From: Sinomonas mesophila | GTDB lineage: Bacteria; Actinomycetota; Actinomycetes; Actinomycetales; Micrococcaceae | Direction: 5' to 3' | DNA: 41,579 nt | NCBI RefSeq assembly: GCF_001999765.1 | Contig: NZ_MTIC01000033.1 | Span: forward strand, 1-41,579 | Shown: piece by piece, positions 6,725 through 34,964 of the stretch | How positions within the stretch are numbered: position 1 is the stretch's first letter | Layout of the letters: each line of letters starts with the position of its first letter | Notes under the pieces: model-generated | The model's input: only the letters and a program-made list of their open reading frames with translations | Database searches by the model: none | Told to the model about the DNA's origin: nothing | Made by a program: the position numbers and the translations under genes

Positions 6725-6810
6725 CACGTACTCGTCCGAGGCGAACAAGTAGTCATCGAGGGCGAAGCCACGTAGTCATCGGAGGCGACCACGTACTCAT
6801 CGGGAGGGAA
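6725..6810. repeat. four imperfect 21-23 bp tandem repeats upstream of the M23 gene
   Basis: Units at 6725-6745, 6746-6768, 6769-6789 and 6790-6810 share the consensus CACGTAsTCATCGgAGGCGA. They lie between the tRNA-Ser terminator and the M23 peptidase start, so they are in its promoter/leader region. The second unit is 23 bp, which breaks any reading frame and argues against a coding repeat. Confidence 0.7.
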
Positions 6811-6812
6811 TA

Positions 6813-6848
6813 GAAAAAAGACACCCCCGGTCATGGACCGGGGGTGTC
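6813..6848 (-). terminator. intrinsic terminator of the tRNA-Ser gene
   Basis: The minus strand has a perfect 13-bp stem (GACACCCCCGGTC and its complement) with a 3-nt loop, followed directly by TTTTTT. It lies 8 bp past the 3' end of the tRNA and is the only terminator in the window with a classic U tract. Confidence 0.92.
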
Positions 6849-6855
6849 TGCGCGC

Positions 6856-6940
6856 GGAGGATGGGGGATTTGAACCCCCGAGGGCTGTTAACCCAACACG
6901 CGTTCCAGGCGTGCGCCATAGGCCGCTAGGCGAATCCTCC
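6856..6940 (-). tRNA. tRNA-Ser (anticodon GGA)
   Basis: An 85-nt class II tRNA. The acceptor arms GGAGGAT/ATCCTCC pair. The anticodon loop reads CTGGAAC, giving anticodon GGA (UCC/UCU serine codons). A long variable arm, as expected for tRNA-Ser, precedes the T arm with GGTTCAAATCC. The 3' CCA is not encoded. A TATTCT -10 box (plus-strand 6966-6971) lies just upstream, and a strong terminator follows. Confidence 0.95.
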
Positions 6941-7054: not shown

Positions 7055-7060
7055 GTTCCC

Positions 7061-7150
7061 CGGCCCCTCATGTGGCGTCATCCTGCTGAACTCCCCCAGG
7101 ACCGGAAGGTAGCAAGGGTAGGTGGGCTCTGGCGGGTGCATGAGGGGTCC
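7061..7150 (+). ncRNA. ffs: signal recognition particle RNA, small bacterial type (4.5S)
   Basis: About 90 nt. The ends pair (GGCCCCTCATG with CATGAGGGGTCC), and the apical part holds the diagnostic SRP domain IV sequence AGGACCGGAAGGTAGCAAG with the GGAA-type tetraloop and the asymmetric loop that binds Ffh. It lies just upstream of dnaX, the usual order in actinobacteria. The SRP RNA with Ffh targets membrane proteins co-translationally. Confidence 0.93.
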
Positions 7151-7215
7151 TTTCGTTCCCCCGGCCCGACCGCCGGCGCCTGTGGATAACCGGGCTCGGC
7201 CCCTGGCGAGATTGG

Positions 7216-7227: not shown

Positions 7228-10170
7228 GTGAGTTCTCCCGCTGCCCTCTACCGCCGGTATCGGCCGGACACGTTCAAGGACGTGATCGGGCAGGAGCACG
7301 TCACCGAGCCGCTCATGACGGCGCTGCGCAAGGACCGCGTCAACCACGCCTACCTCTTCTCCGGCCCCCGCGGCTGCGGCAAGACCACCTCCGCGCGCAT
7401 CCTCGCCCGCTGCCTCAACTGCGAGCAGGGCCCGACGCCGGATCCGTGCGGGGTGTGCCCGAGCTGCGTCGAGCTCGCCCGCGGCGGCTCCGGTTCGCTC
7501 GATGTCATCGAGATCGACGCCGCGAGCCACGGCGGCGTCGACGACGCCCGCGACCTCCGCGAGCGCGCGACCTTCGCCCCAGTGCGGGACCGCTACAAGA
7601 TCTTCATCATCGACGAGGCCCACATGGTCACGTCGGCGGGCTTCAACGCGCTCCTGAAGATCGTCGAGGAGCCGCCGGAGCACATCAAGTTCATCTTCGC
7701 GACGACGGAGCCGGACAAGGTGATCGGGACCATCCGGTCCCGCACGCACCACTACCCCTTCCGGCTCGTCCCGCCCGAGCCCCTGCTCGCGTACCTCGAG
7801 CAGCTCTGCGCGGCGGAGAGCGTTCCCGTCGCGCCGGGCGTGCTCTCGCTCGTGGTCCGGGCCGGCGGGGGCTCGGTGCGAGACTCGCTCTCGGTCCTCG
7901 ACCAGCTCATGGCCGGCGCCGGCCCCGACGGGCTCGACTACGAGCTGGCCGTCGCGCTCCTGGGCTATACCCACGCGGCCCTGCTCGATGACGTCGTGGA
8001 CGCCGTGGCGGCGGGCGATTCCGGGACGGTGTTCCGCGCCGTCGACCGCGTGATCCAGACCGGCCACGATCCGCGCCGCTTTGTCGAGGACCTCCTCGAG
8101 CGCTTCCGCGACCTCATCATCGTCCAGGCCCTGCCCGAGGCGGCCGAGTCGATCCTGCGCGGCGTCCCGGCCGACCAGCTCGCGCGCATGCGGGTCCAGG
8201 CGCAGAATCTGGGGGCGGCCGAGCTGTCCCGCGCGGCAGACGTCACGAACGAGGCCTTCAACGAGATGACCGGCGCCACCTCGCCCCGGCTGCACCTCGA
8301 GCTCCTGTGCGCCCGGCTCATGCTTCCAGGCGCGGAGGCGACCGAGCGCGGCTGGGCCGCGCGGGTCGACCGGCTCGAGCGCCGCCTCGCCTTCGCGCAC
8401 GACGGCGGGGAGCCACCCGCCGCGGCGTCGGTCCCGACGCCCGTGTCCGGGGACGCGGCCCCGCGGCCGCGTCCCGAGACGCCGTCCACGAGCGCACCGC
8501 CGGTGCCCCAGGCCCCGCAGCCGGCCCCCGCGGTCGAGCGAAGCGAAGCCCCCGCCGCCGTCGTGGAGACGGGCAACACCCAGCCCGAGCCCGGGGCGTC
8601 CCAGCCCCCCACCTCGGCGCCACAGGCCCCCACCTCGGCGACCCAGCCCCCCACCTCGGCGCCACAGGCCCCCACCTCGGCGACTCAGGCACCGCAGGGC
8701 GGCGGCGCCGGGAGCGTGGAGATGTTCCGCCGCGCGTGGCCCGAGATCCTCGACACCCTGGCCAAGGTCAAGCGCAGCACGTGGGCGCTCGTGGGGCCGA
8801 ACGCCTCCGTGGCAGGCTTCGACGGCCGGACCCTGGCGCTCGCCTTCGGCACGTCCGGCCTGGCCTCGGCCTTCATGCGCAGCGACCACGCCGACAACCT
8901 GCGCCGAGCGATCCAGCTGGTTCTCGGCGTCGACTGCCAGATCGACGCCGTGACCGGCGGCAACGGCCCCGGCGTTGTCCCGTCCGCGGGGGCGAGGGGT
9001 GGCGGCTCCCCAAAAGCACCGGCTGACCCGGGCCAGGACACACCTGTGCCCGCGGTCGAGTCTCGCCTGACTGCGTCCGCCGAGTCACGGCCCGCCAGGC
9101 CCGTTGGCGGCAGCGCCCCCTCCGCAGTATCCGCGGCCAGCGCCCCCGCGGAGCCGTCAGAGGCCGACATCGCATGGGGCCTCGCCCCGGCACCCGCTCA
9201 GAGCACGGCCTCGGCCCAGCCCGCCGGCGCGTCCCCGAACCATGCCCCGGCGCAGGGCGTCGACCGGCCGGTCACTCCACGCGCCGAGCCCGCCATTCCT
9301 GGATCGGCGCCCGGCACAGCGGCTCCGGCGACGTCGGCGCCAGCAGCTCCAGCGATTGCGCCCTCCGCGTACGAGCCCCCCGCCGCCGGGCCCCCCACCT
9401 CCGAGCCCCCCGCCGCCGAGCCCCCTACGCCCGCGATGTCGGCACCCGAGACTGGGCTGCCCGCGGCCCAGGCTTCCCGCGCGGTCGCCCCCTCCGGGCC
9501 GTCGCCGTCGAGCCCCTACGACGACATCCCGTACTCGAATGAGGAGCCGCCCAACGAGTGGGACGAGCCCTACCCCGAGGATGACGGCTACGCCCGCGCT
9601 GCCCAGCCCAACCGGGCCCCGCAGGCCCCCCAGCCAGCGGGGCTCTCCGGCACGGCCCCGGCGGCCCCGGGCACCTCCATCTCGATGTCCTCACCCTCGT
9701 CGACGGCATCAGATCCTTGGTCCTACGCCCGGGAGTCCTCGCCAGGCGTGTGGACGGTCGGCTCGGAGCCCAACGTCGGGGCGGACGGCGCATCGGCCTC
9801 CGCCCCGTCCACGGTCCCCGCCGCCCCCGCAGCCACGGCGCCGTCGTCCGCTCCCGCCTACGCACCGGCAGCAGCGCAGGCACCACAGAACGGCGCCTCC
9901 CCAACCCAGCCGGCCCCCTCAGCAAACGGCGCCTCCGACGGCGGGCGCCGTCTGAGCATGTACGAGAGGCTGAGCCGGTCGGCGGCCGAGCGCGGGCCGC
10001 AGGAGCAGCAGGCGCAGGCGCCGCAGGCCTACGTCGACGACATCCCGAGCGCGGACGACGAGGCGATCGAGGAGTCGATCCTCTTCGGGCGGGCGGCGGT
10101 CGAGCGCATCCTCGGCGGAAAACTCATCGAGGAGCGGGCCCTGGACGGGACTGTCATCCCTCCGCGGTAG
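7228..10170 (+). CDS. dnaX: DNA polymerase III subunit gamma/tau
   Basis: The clamp-loader ATPase of the replicative polymerase, 980 residues, which is long for the family. The N-terminal AAA+ core (about 1-370) has Walker A GPRGCGKTT (residues 46-54), a four-Cys zinc module (Cys65, 74, 77, 80), Walker B IIDEAH (Asp129/Glu130) and sensor/Arg-finger segments. Residues about 490-560 form a conserved tau domain (FRRAWPEILDTLAKVKRSTW). The rest, roughly 390-485 and 570-910, is Pro/Ala/Ser-rich and probably disordered. A conserved acidic C-terminus follows (VDDIPSADDEAIEESILFG). I see no obvious frameshift signal for a separate gamma form. GTG start with TAGGGT 6 nt upstream, probably leaderless. 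recR follows 9 bp after the stop. Confidence 0.96.
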   Translation: MSSPAALYRRYRPDTFKDVIGQEHVTEPLMTALRKDRVNHAYLFSGPRGCGKTTSARILARCLNCEQGPTPDPCGVCPSCVELARGGSGSLDVIEIDAASHGGVDDARDLRERATFAPVRDRYKIFIIDEAHMVTSAGFNALLKIVEEPPEHIKFIFATTEPDKVIGTIRSRTHHYPFRLVPPEPLLAYLEQLCAAESVPVAPGVLSLVVRAGGGSVRDSLSVLDQLMAGAGPDGLDYELAVALLGYTHAALLDDVVDAVAAGDSGTVFRAVDRVIQTGHDPRRFVEDLLERFRDLIIVQALPEAAESILRGVPADQLARMRVQAQNLGAAELSRAADVTNEAFNEMTGATSPRLHLELLCARLMLPGAEATERGWAARVDRLERRLAFAHDGGEPPAAASVPTPVSGDAAPRPRPETPSTSAPPVPQAPQPAPAVERSEAPAAVVETGNTQPEPGASQPPTSAPQAPTSATQPPTSAPQAPTSATQAPQGGGAGSVEMFRRAWPEILDTLAKVKRSTWALVGPNASVAGFDGRTLALAFGTSGLASAFMRSDHADNLRRAIQLVLGVDCQIDAVTGGNGPGVVPSAGARGGGSPKAPADPGQDTPVPAVESRLTASAESRPARPVGGSAPSAVSAASAPAEPSEADIAWGLAPAPAQSTASAQPAGASPNHAPAQGVDRPVTPRAEPAIPGSAPGTAAPATSAPAAPAIAPSAYEPPAAGPPTSEPPAAEPPTPAMSAPETGLPAAQASRAVAPSGPSPSSPYDDIPYSNEEPPNEWDEPYPEDDGYARAAQPNRAPQAPQPAGLSGTAPAAPGTSISMSSPSSTASDPWSYARESSPGVWTVGSEPNVGADGASASAPSTVPAAPAATAPSSAPAYAPAAAQAPQNGASPTQPAPSANGASDGGRRLSMYERLSRSAAERGPQEQQAQAPQAYVDDIPSADDEAIEESILFGRAAVERILGGKLIEERALDGTVIPPR
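8602..8685 (+). repeat. 42-bp tandem repeat inside dnaX
   Basis: Two nearly identical 42-bp units, each made of two 21-bp halves, encode QPPTSAPQAPTSAT twice in the first disordered linker of DnaX. Confidence 0.8.
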
Positions 10171-17518: not shown

Positions 17519-17980
17519 GTGGCCGCCGAGGACGAGGACCTCCTGCTCGAGAGGCAGCTCTGCTTCGCATTGAGTGTCGCGAGCCGCAGCGTGGTGGGCG
17601 CGTACCGCCCCGTCCTCGAGAAGCTCGGGCTCACGCACCCCCAGTACCTTGTCATGCTCGCGCTGTGGGAGCACAGCCCGCGGACCGTGCGCGAGATCAG
17701 CGAGGCCCTCCTCCTCGAGCCCGCCACGGTCACGCCGCTGCTCAAGCGGCTCGAGGACGCCGGGCTCGTGACCCGTACGCGACAGCCCGGCAACGGGAGG
17801 GCACTCGACGTCGCGCTCACCCCGCGCGGCGCGGCCCTGCGGCAGCAGGCGCTCGTGGTGCCCGAGACGATGATGTCGCGGCTCGGCATCACCCGCGAGG
17901 AGGCCGAGGAACTGCACGGGTCGATGATGCGGCTCATCGCCGCGGCCCAGGCCAGCCGCACGGCGGACTCCCTGCCGTAG
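17519..17980 (+). CDS. MarR family regulator, OhrR type
   Basis: A 153-residue winged-helix repressor of the OhrR subgroup. It has the N-terminal QLCFALSVASRS with Cys15, the redox-sensing cysteine position of Bacillus subtilis OhrR. LTHPQYLVMLALWEHSPRTV follows, then the recognition region EPATVTPLLKRLEDAGLVTR and the wing RTRQPGNGRALDVALTPRG. OhrR senses organic hydroperoxides and normally controls ohr. No ohr/osmC gene is next to it here; the divergent neighbour is a small unknown gene. GTG start with AGGAAGGA upstream. Confidence 0.88.
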   Translation: MAAEDEDLLLERQLCFALSVASRSVVGAYRPVLEKLGLTHPQYLVMLALWEHSPRTVREISEALLLEPATVTPLLKRLEDAGLVTRTRQPGNGRALDVALTPRGAALRQQALVVPETMMSRLGITREEAEELHGSMMRLIAAAQASRTADSLP

Positions 17981-17995: not shown

Positions 17996-18079
17996 CGTTG
18001 CGGGGTCACCTCCCTGCGTTGCGGGGTCACCTCCCCGCGTTGCGGGGTCACCTCCCCGCGTTGCGGGGTCACCTCCTAG
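17996..18079. repeat. intergenic 21-bp repeat array A (4 units)
   Basis: Four head-to-tail 21-bp units of the form CGTTGCGGGGTCACCTCCCnG, nearly identical, lie between the OhrR-type gene and the SSI-domain lipoprotein. Core GCGGGGTCA (complement TGACCCCGC). The same repeat occurs at 18623, 24500 and 34557. Confidence 0.92.
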
Positions 18080-18118: not shown

Positions 18119-18625
18119 ATGCAACTCCATGCCCGCGCACTGATGCTTGCCACAGCGCTCCTCGGTCTGCTGACGGCCTGCGCCCTCGGCCCCTCGACCC
18201 CCGGTCCCAGCAACCCCACGCCGTCGACGCCAAGCCCCTCCAGTTCCACGCCGTCCACGTCGGGGCAGCCGAGCGGCACGCAGGGTGCGCCGACGGCGGA
18301 TCTCGAGGTCGTCGTCGTCAGCGCACCAGGTGAGCCCGAGCAGCGCTGGACGTTGCAGTGCTCCGGTGCCGCGCCGCTGCCAGGCAGCACTCATCCGAGC
18401 GCCGCGGCGGCGTGCGCGCTCCTCGACGCGAGGCGTGATGTGCTCGACCCGCCGGCGCAGAACCGGCTCTGCACGCAGCAGTACGGCGGCCCGGACGTCG
18501 CCACGGTCACGGGGACGCTGGACGGCGCCCCGGTGGACCGGCGCTTCAGCCGCACCGACGGCTGCGAGATCGCCGACTGGAGCGCGGCCCAAGCCCTGAT
18601 CGGCCCGCCGAGCGGAGCCGTCTGA
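18119..18625 (+). CDS. lipoprotein with subtilisin-inhibitor-like (SSI) domain
   Basis: A 168-residue lipoprotein. The signal peptide ends in the lipobox L-L-T-A-C (Cys21). A Ser/Thr/Pro linker runs to about residue 58, then an SSI-like domain (protease inhibitor family I16). The four family cysteines are in LQCSG, AACALL, LCTQQYGGP and DGCEIADW, and TVTGTLDGAPV and FSRTDGCE match the core. Streptomyces SSI proteins are secreted and soluble; anchoring as a lipoprotein is different. The reactive-site loop falls in the variable stretch before LCTQQ. Strong AGGAGG ribosome-binding site. Its TGA stop is the first unit of repeat array B. Confidence 0.8.
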   Translation: MQLHARALMLATALLGLLTACALGPSTPGPSNPTPSTPSPSSSTPSTSGQPSGTQGAPTADLEVVVVSAPGEPEQRWTLQCSGAAPLPGSTHPSAAAACALLDARRDVLDPPAQNRLCTQQYGGPDVATVTGTLDGAPVDRRFSRTDGCEIADWSAAQALIGPPSGAV

Positions 18626-18699
18626 CCCCGCGTTCAAGGGGACATCACCCCTCAACCAGGGGGCCAGTTGAGGGGTCATGTCCCGCGCAATGTGGGTCA
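18623..18699. repeat. intergenic 21-bp repeat array B (degenerate, both orientations)
   Basis: The gap between two convergent genes begins with TGACCCCGC (18623; its TGA is the lipoprotein stop) and ends with GTGGGTCA (18692-18699; its TCA is the PhoD stop). An inverted unit ends at 18678, exactly 21 bp before the last one. Confidence 0.75.
18641..18682. terminator. bidirectional hairpin inside array B
   Basis: GACAT-C-ACCCCTCAAC pairs with GTTGAGGGGT-C-ATGTC, a 16-bp stem with one C-C mismatch and a 10-nt loop, between two convergent genes. No T tract. Confidence 0.65.
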
Positions 18700-24499: not shown

Positions 24500-24554
24500 T
24501 GACCCCGCAACGCAGGGACGTGACCCCGCATCGTTGAGAGGTGACCCCGCATGG
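24500..24554. repeat. intergenic 21-bp repeat array C (3 units)
   Basis: TGACCCCGC starts at 24500, 24521 and 24542, exactly 21 bp apart, with variable sequence between the cores. Here no gene stop codon is involved. Confidence 0.85.
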
Positions 24555-34100: not shown

Positions 34101-34559
34101 GTGAGCACTCCCGGAGACCCACCGCGGCGGAATCCGTACCGGGACCCGAGCGCCTACTGGCCGGACGGTGTCCGTCCAGGCAGTGTGCCGCGTTCCCCCG
34201 ATCCCGACGGCGTGCTGGCGGAGGGCCGGCGCGGCGGCGAGCTCGTCCCGCGTCCCGGCCCCGCGCCGTCGTTCGACGCCGGCCGCCGCACCCCCCGGCC
34301 GCAGCGCGCCCGGAAGCCCGCCTCGCGCCTCGCGACGGTCCTCGGCGGCGTCTCGCTCGGCTTCGGCCTGTTCGCCCTCATGCTCGGGCTCGTCCCCTAC
34401 ATCGGTCCGGTGCTCGCCGCTGCTCCGCTCGCGGTCGCCGTCCTCGCCGGCTGGGGCGGCCTCGCCCGGGCCCGCGCGCGGGCGGCGCGCTACCCCGCAA
34501 CGGCGTTCACGGGCCTGGGCCTGAGCCTGCTGCACATCGTGCTCATGTTCGTGGGCTGA
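34101..34559 (+). CDS. membrane protein with disordered N-terminus
   Basis: A 152-residue protein. Residues 1-75 are Pro/Arg/Gly-rich (RRNPYRDPSAYWPDGVRPGS), probably cytoplasmic and disordered. They are followed by three hydrophobic segments (about 80-102, 104-120, 132-150), the middle two fused as a hairpin. It resembles DUF4190-like actinobacterial membrane proteins, but I would not assign a function. GTG start with GATAAT 6 nt upstream. The TGA stop (34557-34559) is the first unit of repeat array D, and a second in-frame TGA follows 21 bp later. Confidence 0.75.
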   Translation: MSTPGDPPRRNPYRDPSAYWPDGVRPGSVPRSPDPDGVLAEGRRGGELVPRPGPAPSFDAGRRTPRPQRARKPASRLATVLGGVSLGFGLFALMLGLVPYIGPVLAAAPLAVAVLAGWGGLARARARAARYPATAFTGLGLSLLHIVLMFVG

Positions 34560-34673
34560 CCCCGCATCGTTGGAAGGTGACCCCGCATCGGAAGAGAAGA
34601 TGCGGGGTCACGTCCCTAGCTTGCGGGGTCACGTCCCTAGCTTGCGGGGTCACGTCCCTAGCTTGCGGGGTCA
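34557..34673. repeat. intergenic 21-bp repeat array D (6 units, inverted halves)
   Basis: TGACCCCGC starts at 34557 and 34578. Four inverted copies have TCA ending at 34610, 34631, 34652 and 34673. All steps are 21 bp. The halves meet as a perfect 12-bp inverted repeat (34578-34589 with 34599-34610) that can act as a terminator. The outermost TGA triplets are the stop codons of both convergent genes. Confidence 0.92.
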
Positions 34674-34964
34674 GTCCTCGCTGTGCGCCTCCCGCCGTCG
34701 CACGCTGAGCAGTTCGAGCTCCGGCCGGCCCGCGACGAACCGCTCGACGGCGTCGAGCACCTCGACGGCGTGGGCGCGGTCCGCGCTCACGAGCCCCGCC
34801 CCGACCCTGGCCCTGCGGTACAGGTCCATCTCCCCGACCTCGGCGGCCGAGACGTCATAGCGGCGCCGCAGCTCCGCCACAAGCGGGCGCACGACGGAGC
34901 GCTTCTCCTTGAGCGAGTGTACGTCCCCGAGCAGGAGGTCGAACTCGATCCACGCGATCCACAT
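34671..34964 (-). CDS. DUF503 family protein
   Basis: A 97-residue DUF503 (YlxP-like) protein: MWIAWIEFDLLLGDVHSLKE, KRSVVRPLVAELRRRYDVSA and AAEVGEMDLYRRARVGAGLV are the family hallmarks. It has a ferredoxin-like fold and unknown function; in many bacteria it lies near rbfA or infB, but not here. The start is ATG at 34964, with TACCCT 7 nt upstream and no ribosome-binding site. An ATG at 34968 is out of frame. Its TGA stop is the outer unit of array D. Confidence 0.88.
   Translation of the reverse strand: MWIAWIEFDLLLGDVHSLKEKRSVVRPLVAELRRRYDVSAAEVGEMDLYRRARVGAGLVSADRAHAVEVLDAVERFVAGRPELELLSVRRREAHSED

Follow-up and report, generated by a model that had tools for sequence, protein, structure and literature searches.

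Tandem repeat arrays at gene 3' ends in Sinomonas as candidate protein-bound boundaries between transcription units

The window analyzed here is a stretch of 41,579 nucleotides from Sinomonas mesophila, in which two convergent genes meet across a compact repeat array, array D. The left gene (34212..34559, plus strand; start codon not settled) was initially annotated as encoding a membrane protein; the protein has a hydrophobic C end and no Pfam match. The right gene (34671..34964, minus strand) encodes a DUF503 protein (Pfam PF04456, E 1.1e-30), and DUF503 is present in 15/15 Sinomonas genomes. The left half of array D (34557..34586, plus strand) consists of two family-A TGACCCCGC units, at 34557 and 34578, and the right half (34602..34673, minus strand) of four, at 34602, 34623, 34644, and 34665. 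The array is real, and chance is excluded as its origin. Both the six units and their 21-bp step within each half agree with the initial annotation, but there is no single 21-bp ladder, as the two halves lie 24 bp apart, start to start. Where they meet, the perfect 12-bp inverted repeat described earlier gains one further pair, forming a head-to-head hairpin (34577..34611) with a 13-bp perfect stem (arms 34577-34589 and 34599-34611), a 9-nt loop, and an energy of about -26 and -25 kcal/mol for RNA of either strand. At the gathering threshold, the sole Rfam match in the window is the SRP RNA at 7059-7155, and the array itself matches no covariance model. A heptad-coding peptide running across array D was considered but is not favoured: an open frame is present, but the spacers vary.

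Array D supplies both stop codons, as the initial annotation had claimed: 34557-34559 is the TGA that closes the frame of the left gene, and 34671-34673 is the TCA that forms the minus-strand stop of the DUF503 gene. The left gene meets in-frame TGAs at 34557 and 34578, and DUF503 meets them on the minus strand, read from 34673, 34652, 34631, and 34610. The extra stops thus exist for both genes, but their usefulness was not borne out, since the first stop suffices and the protein ends match those of relatives. Eight relatives have a left-gene homologue (49-58% identity) opposite DUF503, with 6-32 nt from stop to stop and no array, compared with 111 nt in the window genome; in the other six Sinomonas, no left gene was detected next to DUF503 within the stretch examined. 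In three of the eight relatives, the gap starts with TGACCCG, a sequence near the core. Because the left and DUF503 proteins of the window genome both end at the same place as those of the relatives, array D was most likely gained between two preserved stop codons.

The window holds further family-A repeats. Four units at 21 bp occupy 18000..18071 (minus strand) in a co-directional gap, 19 bp after a called gene (17519-17980), and three more, also at 21 bp, lie at 24500..24550 (plus strand), likewise in a co-directional gap. A lone head-to-head pair, TGACCCCGC facing GAGGGGTCA with 38 bp between the cores, is located in a convergent gap at 18623..18678, where a short called ORF with a weak score (18440-18625) stops at the TGA of the TGACCCCGC unit. 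Two other repeats differ from this family. At 6725-6803, a tandem array of a different, ACGTACTCATCGGAGGCGA-like sequence has steps of about 21-23 bp and adjoins an inverted repeat (about 6818-6850, judged by eye) and a tRNA-Ser gene (6854-6940, minus strand). A 21-bp tandem repeat at 8595-8690 falls within a long called gene (7228-10170); this position indicates a heptad-coding repeat, which is probably unrelated to the intergenic arrays.

Array D is one of about 70 family-A sites in its genome, G000 (Micrococcaceae, 4.0 Mb). A search for TGACCCCGC pairs with spacings of 17-25 bp allowed yielded 143, and the reversed pattern yielded 0. Fixed-spacing searches confirmed 139 of the 143 at exactly 21 bp, and every listed pair spans 21 bp. 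The base composition predicts only about 0.002 pairs at exactly 21 bp in 4.0 Mb, so an origin by chance or codon context was rejected, and the 21-bp arrays foreseen from this one locus prove to be genome-wide. The unit consensus, TGACCCCGC-RWCSYWGRRASN, derives from 142 spacers, in which A is invariant at position 19, 141 carry G at position 16, and position 11 splits into 74 with A, 67 with T, and 1 with G. The positions that tolerate A or T would fit indirect or minor-groove reading by a protein.

The placement of these repeats is far from uniform. In total, 141 of the 143 pairs were located and form 71 clusters, the other two having no listed place. With genes called throughout by our own codon-usage script, the 69 family-A places comprise 32 in convergent gaps, 24 in co-directional gaps, and 7 in divergent gaps, while 5 fall within a called gene and one is unclassed. 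The convergent share, 32 of 63 classed sites, exceeds the 22 of 119 in sampled array-free gaps (odds ratio 4.6, Fisher P 1.4e-5), a background drawn from ten G000 stretches that were placed with the array list in view and contain no exact-core array. Of the 66 runs next to a gene 3' end, 59 are no more than 80 nt away from it. In 11 of 54 runs, the TGA of a unit is the exact stop of the same-direction upstream gene, and two genes run into the array. Both the enrichment in convergent gaps and the recurrence of copies at TGA stops, which the initial annotation had put forward for checking, were therefore found. A guide function in replichore polarity, of the FtsK-like kind, was also considered and rejected, as orientations look mixed (by eye) in the single-contig genome G003.

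The nearest described kind of element is the REP/BIME group. According to passages of PMC3733652, REPs of the GTAG and CGTC families are dispersed and extragenic, favour convergent and unidirectional gaps, and occur head-to-head, tail-to-tail, and in tandem, while GTAG REPs often supply the stop codon; part of PMC1525189 describes their binding of gyrase, Pol I, and IHF. Family-A sites are likewise extragenic and favour convergent and unidirectional gaps, so that placement and stop-codon supply are common to both kinds of repeat, as far as those passages of PMC3733652 go, and stop-codon supply loses the novelty that had been attached to it. Unlike REPs, however, single Sinomonas units are not palindromes, they follow a near-fixed step of 19-32 bp, and the consensus TGACCCCGC-RWCSYWGRRASN carries neither the GTAG nor the CGTC tag. 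The Y1 (RAYT) transposase PF01797 was found in 0 of 15 Sinomonas genomes, compared with 5 of 14 control genomes in the same search. Identity with REP/RAYT elements was rejected for want of a Y1 transposase, and the comparison also fails on the palindromic unit and the tag. Among the titles and abstract openings of open-licence PMC articles, no description of such arrays was found.

Within the genus, family A appears as a set of dialects. Exact-core pairs number 143 in G000, 40 in G003, and 32 each in G013 and G014, with 0-5 in the other Sinomonas genomes and 0-3 in the other genera tested. With a relaxed core A, 11 of the 15 Sinomonas genomes show dialects whose steps span 19-22 bp, most often 21 or 22 bp. 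G002 (core GTGACCCCTC) uses mainly a 19-bp step, seen in 18 of 31 listed pairs; this genome offers a natural test of whether the spacing must match helical turns. The 21-bp step is consequently not the fixed rule it seemed to be at array D, given the 19-bp form and the 31/32 bp of a second family, and strict two-turn phasing is weakened. Abundance of one family in a genome tends to go with scarcity of the other. G012 has 16 relaxed-core-A pairs, and G008, with 3 such pairs and 0 of core B, is the only genome poor in both. In a wider sample, tandem arrays were present in 34 of 701 Sinomonas gaps and 4 of 242 gaps of five other genera. For steps of 21, 22, 31, 32, 42, or 44 bp, a period set chosen after earlier array results had been seen, the counts were 22 arrays and 0, respectively (P 0.002), and 14 of those 22 lie in convergent gaps. 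Further 22-bp repeats, such as CCAGAGACCCCGCAAC, occur in convergent gaps of other Sinomonas genomes (L203:13917-14030, L192:12532-12651, L227:14944-15037, L248:761-921).

The second family, family B, is built on GTACCCGA, a core unrelated to family A, with a step of 31/32 bp. Pairs of GTACCCGA are present in 13 of 15 Sinomonas genomes, reaching 265 in G001 (3.8 Mb), compared with 0-3 per genome in other genera. All listed places in G001, G013, and G009 step by 31 or 32 bp; the step is exactly 32 bp in 33/33 G013 pairs and, in a fuller G009 list, in 29/30 pairs, the exception being a G009 pair at 30 bp that lacks the rest of the core. The linkers vary in sequence, while all 49 pairs analyzed (33/33 from G013 and 16 of 17 listed from G009, the omitted one also spanning 32 bp) retain the CGAGAT that precedes the core; another G009 pair has CGGGAT in its place. 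No pairing or covariation was seen in the linkers of those 49 pairs.

Family B also favours convergent gaps, with 13 of 20 loci placed there, compared with 124 of 721 gaps; the 20 remain from 30 loci after removal of 6 without a central cluster, 3 duplicates, and 1 inside a called gene. The loci include orthologues and are not independent (L179, L183, and L184 represent one DUF503 neighbourhood in three species), and not all pattern matches among the 30 are arrays (L319 has a spacing of 24 and L322 of 21). This family is polar: of 24 runs within 80 nt of the nearest gene end, a limit set after earlier placement results had been seen, 21 are oriented antiparallel to it, as are 23 of 30 overall. 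Opposite neighbours no more than 300 bp apart in G013 comprise 16 tail-to-tail and 0 head-to-head pairs. Of 42 distinct tail-to-tail sequences, 39 have gaps between the cores of 7-11, 18-19, or 28-30 bp, forming clusters around 9, 18, and 29 bp that are near one turn apart. These 42 sequences include orthologues and are not independent, their cores were not required to lie in arrays, and one of the 58 input strings carried a single-letter error that left its length unaffected. Two families are few for an argument from phasing, and more weight is therefore placed on these junction gaps. Among the GTACCCGA sites of G001, a tail-to-tail palindrome, TCGGGTACAGATSATCTGTACCCGA, recurs.

Comparison of close genomes shows how the arrays change, and it is here that the main rival to a host function arises: the arrays could be constrained, satellite-like intergenic repeats that spread by tandem duplication and recombination and persist where they are least harmful, mainly in convergent gaps. 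G003 and G014 share at least 98% identity in 11 of 15 aligned stretch pairs, and of 12 array indels between them that were selected by eye, 11 have lengths divisible by 21 and the remaining one is 41 bp long. Tandem head-to-tail units thus change by whole units, as in VNTRs and minisatellites, although a single core at about 70 sites, varying linkers, placement at gene ends, and the polarity of family B set the Sinomonas arrays apart. Units are more alike within a run (2.2 mismatches in 12 spacer positions) than between sites (3.5), array D is missing from the same gap in eight relatives, and REPs are similarly placed in the account given by part of PMC3733652, all of which favours tolerated satellites. 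Against them, cores change slowly, with 3 differences in 324 core positions and 25 in 432 spacer positions across 36 matched units (P 3e-4), and linkers keep a near-fixed length while their sequence varies. These features, together with the polarity of family B and its junction steps of about 10 bp, are more easily explained by selection or by a sequence-specific enzyme, although the slow change of the core could come partly from exchange between units that all carry it. Host-neutral satellites are, on balance, a rather unlikely account, but the strongest of the competing ones.

Some of the arrays may instead act in the transcript, as terminators or mRNA 3' stabilisers whose hairpins end or protect both messages. 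In favour of this possibility, array D folds far better than shuffled sequences (z of -7.3 and -5.9) with its 13-bp stem, and a few of the 11 other folded family-A arrays also fold well (z around -3). Moreover, in 14 family-A head-to-head junctions, inner arms match at 52 of 70 positions, compared with 36.4 in shuffles, a level that none of 5000 shuffles reaches; the set covers 14 of the 15 junctions whose gaps measure 11-17 bp, the fifteenth (gap 11) being degenerate, and excludes seven longer ones (20-54 bp). A match beyond shuffles marks these as true hairpins, produced by selection or by fold-back copying. Long GC-rich hairpins are also characteristic of intrinsic terminators without a U-tract, and the Sinomonas head-to-head junctions form such hairpins between convergent genes.

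Most runs, however, are direct repeats without a hairpin, and head-to-head sites are a minority of family A in a unit scan whose score threshold was set by hand. Hairpin energy is similar in convergent gaps with and without arrays (P 0.58), and few gap ends carry a T-run of at least 4, whether in array gaps (3.4%) or in the others (2.5%). The 15 family-B arrays fold like shuffles (mean z of -0.2 and 0.1; these 15 and the 12 of family A were hand-chosen) and show no RNA structure, and their linkers do not covary. Opposite arms of one family-A site differ at 4.0 of 12 spacer positions, compared with 3.5 between sites, so arm pairing is not maintained. Palindromes occur at the junctions, while a single family-A unit does not form a self-folding palindrome of 20-40 bp; 37% of 142 spacers, and 23% of the 61 distinct ones, allow the best 6-bp stem that can be placed in it to form in full. 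RNA structure as a general principle was rejected for family B and does not hold throughout family A, and action at the RNA level is improbable as the explanation of the arrays. The earlier suggestion that the junction of array D is suited to termination retains its hairpin and the matching arms of similar junctions, but does not extend to the arrays in general. Family-A tail-to-tail junctions have a feature of their own, CAATGT-N5-CATTG, at eight centres (exact in four, near in four: L031, L035, L043, L044, L059, L062, L085, L087), where the core gaps fit 12 + 21n bp to within one base; the motif is also present in G012.

A recognition signal for a DNA transaction, such as an uptake-like signal or a site for a recombinase or transposase, through which the repeats would spread, is very improbable: species dialects, dispersed copies, and core-like stop contexts that could seed capture (the TGACCCG of three relatives) speak for it, but 200 kb of G000 contain 7 lone cores where composition predicts about 6, so that the core, unlike a DNA uptake signal (DUS/USS), is not over-represented singly, the 15 genomes lack a Y1 transposase, and array D matches nothing in phage or plasmid collections, a result for which carriage on a phage- or plasmid-borne mobile element was also rejected.

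The near-fixed spacing with varying linkers, the slowly changing core, the junction steps near a helical turn, the polarity of family B, and its lack of RNA structure together point to double-stranded DNA as what is recognized at the 3' ends of genes, with a candidate boundary-forming protein as the simplest reader. The reading we tentatively favour over tolerated satellites, with a confidence that stays short of even, is that the arrays are DNA-level, protein-bound boundaries. Each array would provide a row of double-stranded binding sites just after the stop codons of genes, along which one sequence-specific protein or a small group of related proteins would stack. The coated array would form a boundary where adjacent transcription units, most of them convergent, meet, halting RNA polymerases or keeping them apart in the manner of a roadblock or topological insulator. 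At array D and other head-to-head sites, the RNA hairpin may add ordinary termination. The initial proposal of a protein bound to every unit on one face of the helix keeps its DNA-binding protein as a candidate, but not the two turns of 21 bp as a rule for the genus, given the 19 bp of G002. Grouped, non-palindromic protein sites at gene or replicon ends are familiar from the Sal boxes of mammalian rDNA and from replication Ter sites, and the Sinomonas arrays resemble them as rows of non-palindromic sites at ends, polar in family B; they differ in lying at dozens of ordinary gene ends and in having a binding protein that we only infer.

Several observations weigh against protein-bound boundaries. 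Family-A runs show no orientation preference relative to the gene end (30 antiparallel, 29 parallel), the step in G002 is mainly 19 bp and does not equal two helical turns, copy number varies freely between close genomes, many convergent gaps carry no array, and G008 is poor in both families. A more specific form of the proposal, in which a rapidly diverging family of DNA-binding proteins recognizes the core of each species at a fixed spacing and builds polar, coated boundary arrays that stop converging RNA polymerases as a genus-specific system, is unlikely. If it were true, these genus-specific boundary arrays would be a bacterial counterpart of the terminator-protein arrays of eukaryotes.

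To our knowledge, how GC-rich bacteria separate tightly packed convergent genes without U-tract terminators is poorly settled. If the repeats are satellites, they form an unusually constrained class that is missed by palindrome-based repeat searches. If they are protein-bound boundaries, each genome would provide dozens of natural sites, complete with dialects and copy-number variants, which would allow direct tests of insulation or roadblock termination.
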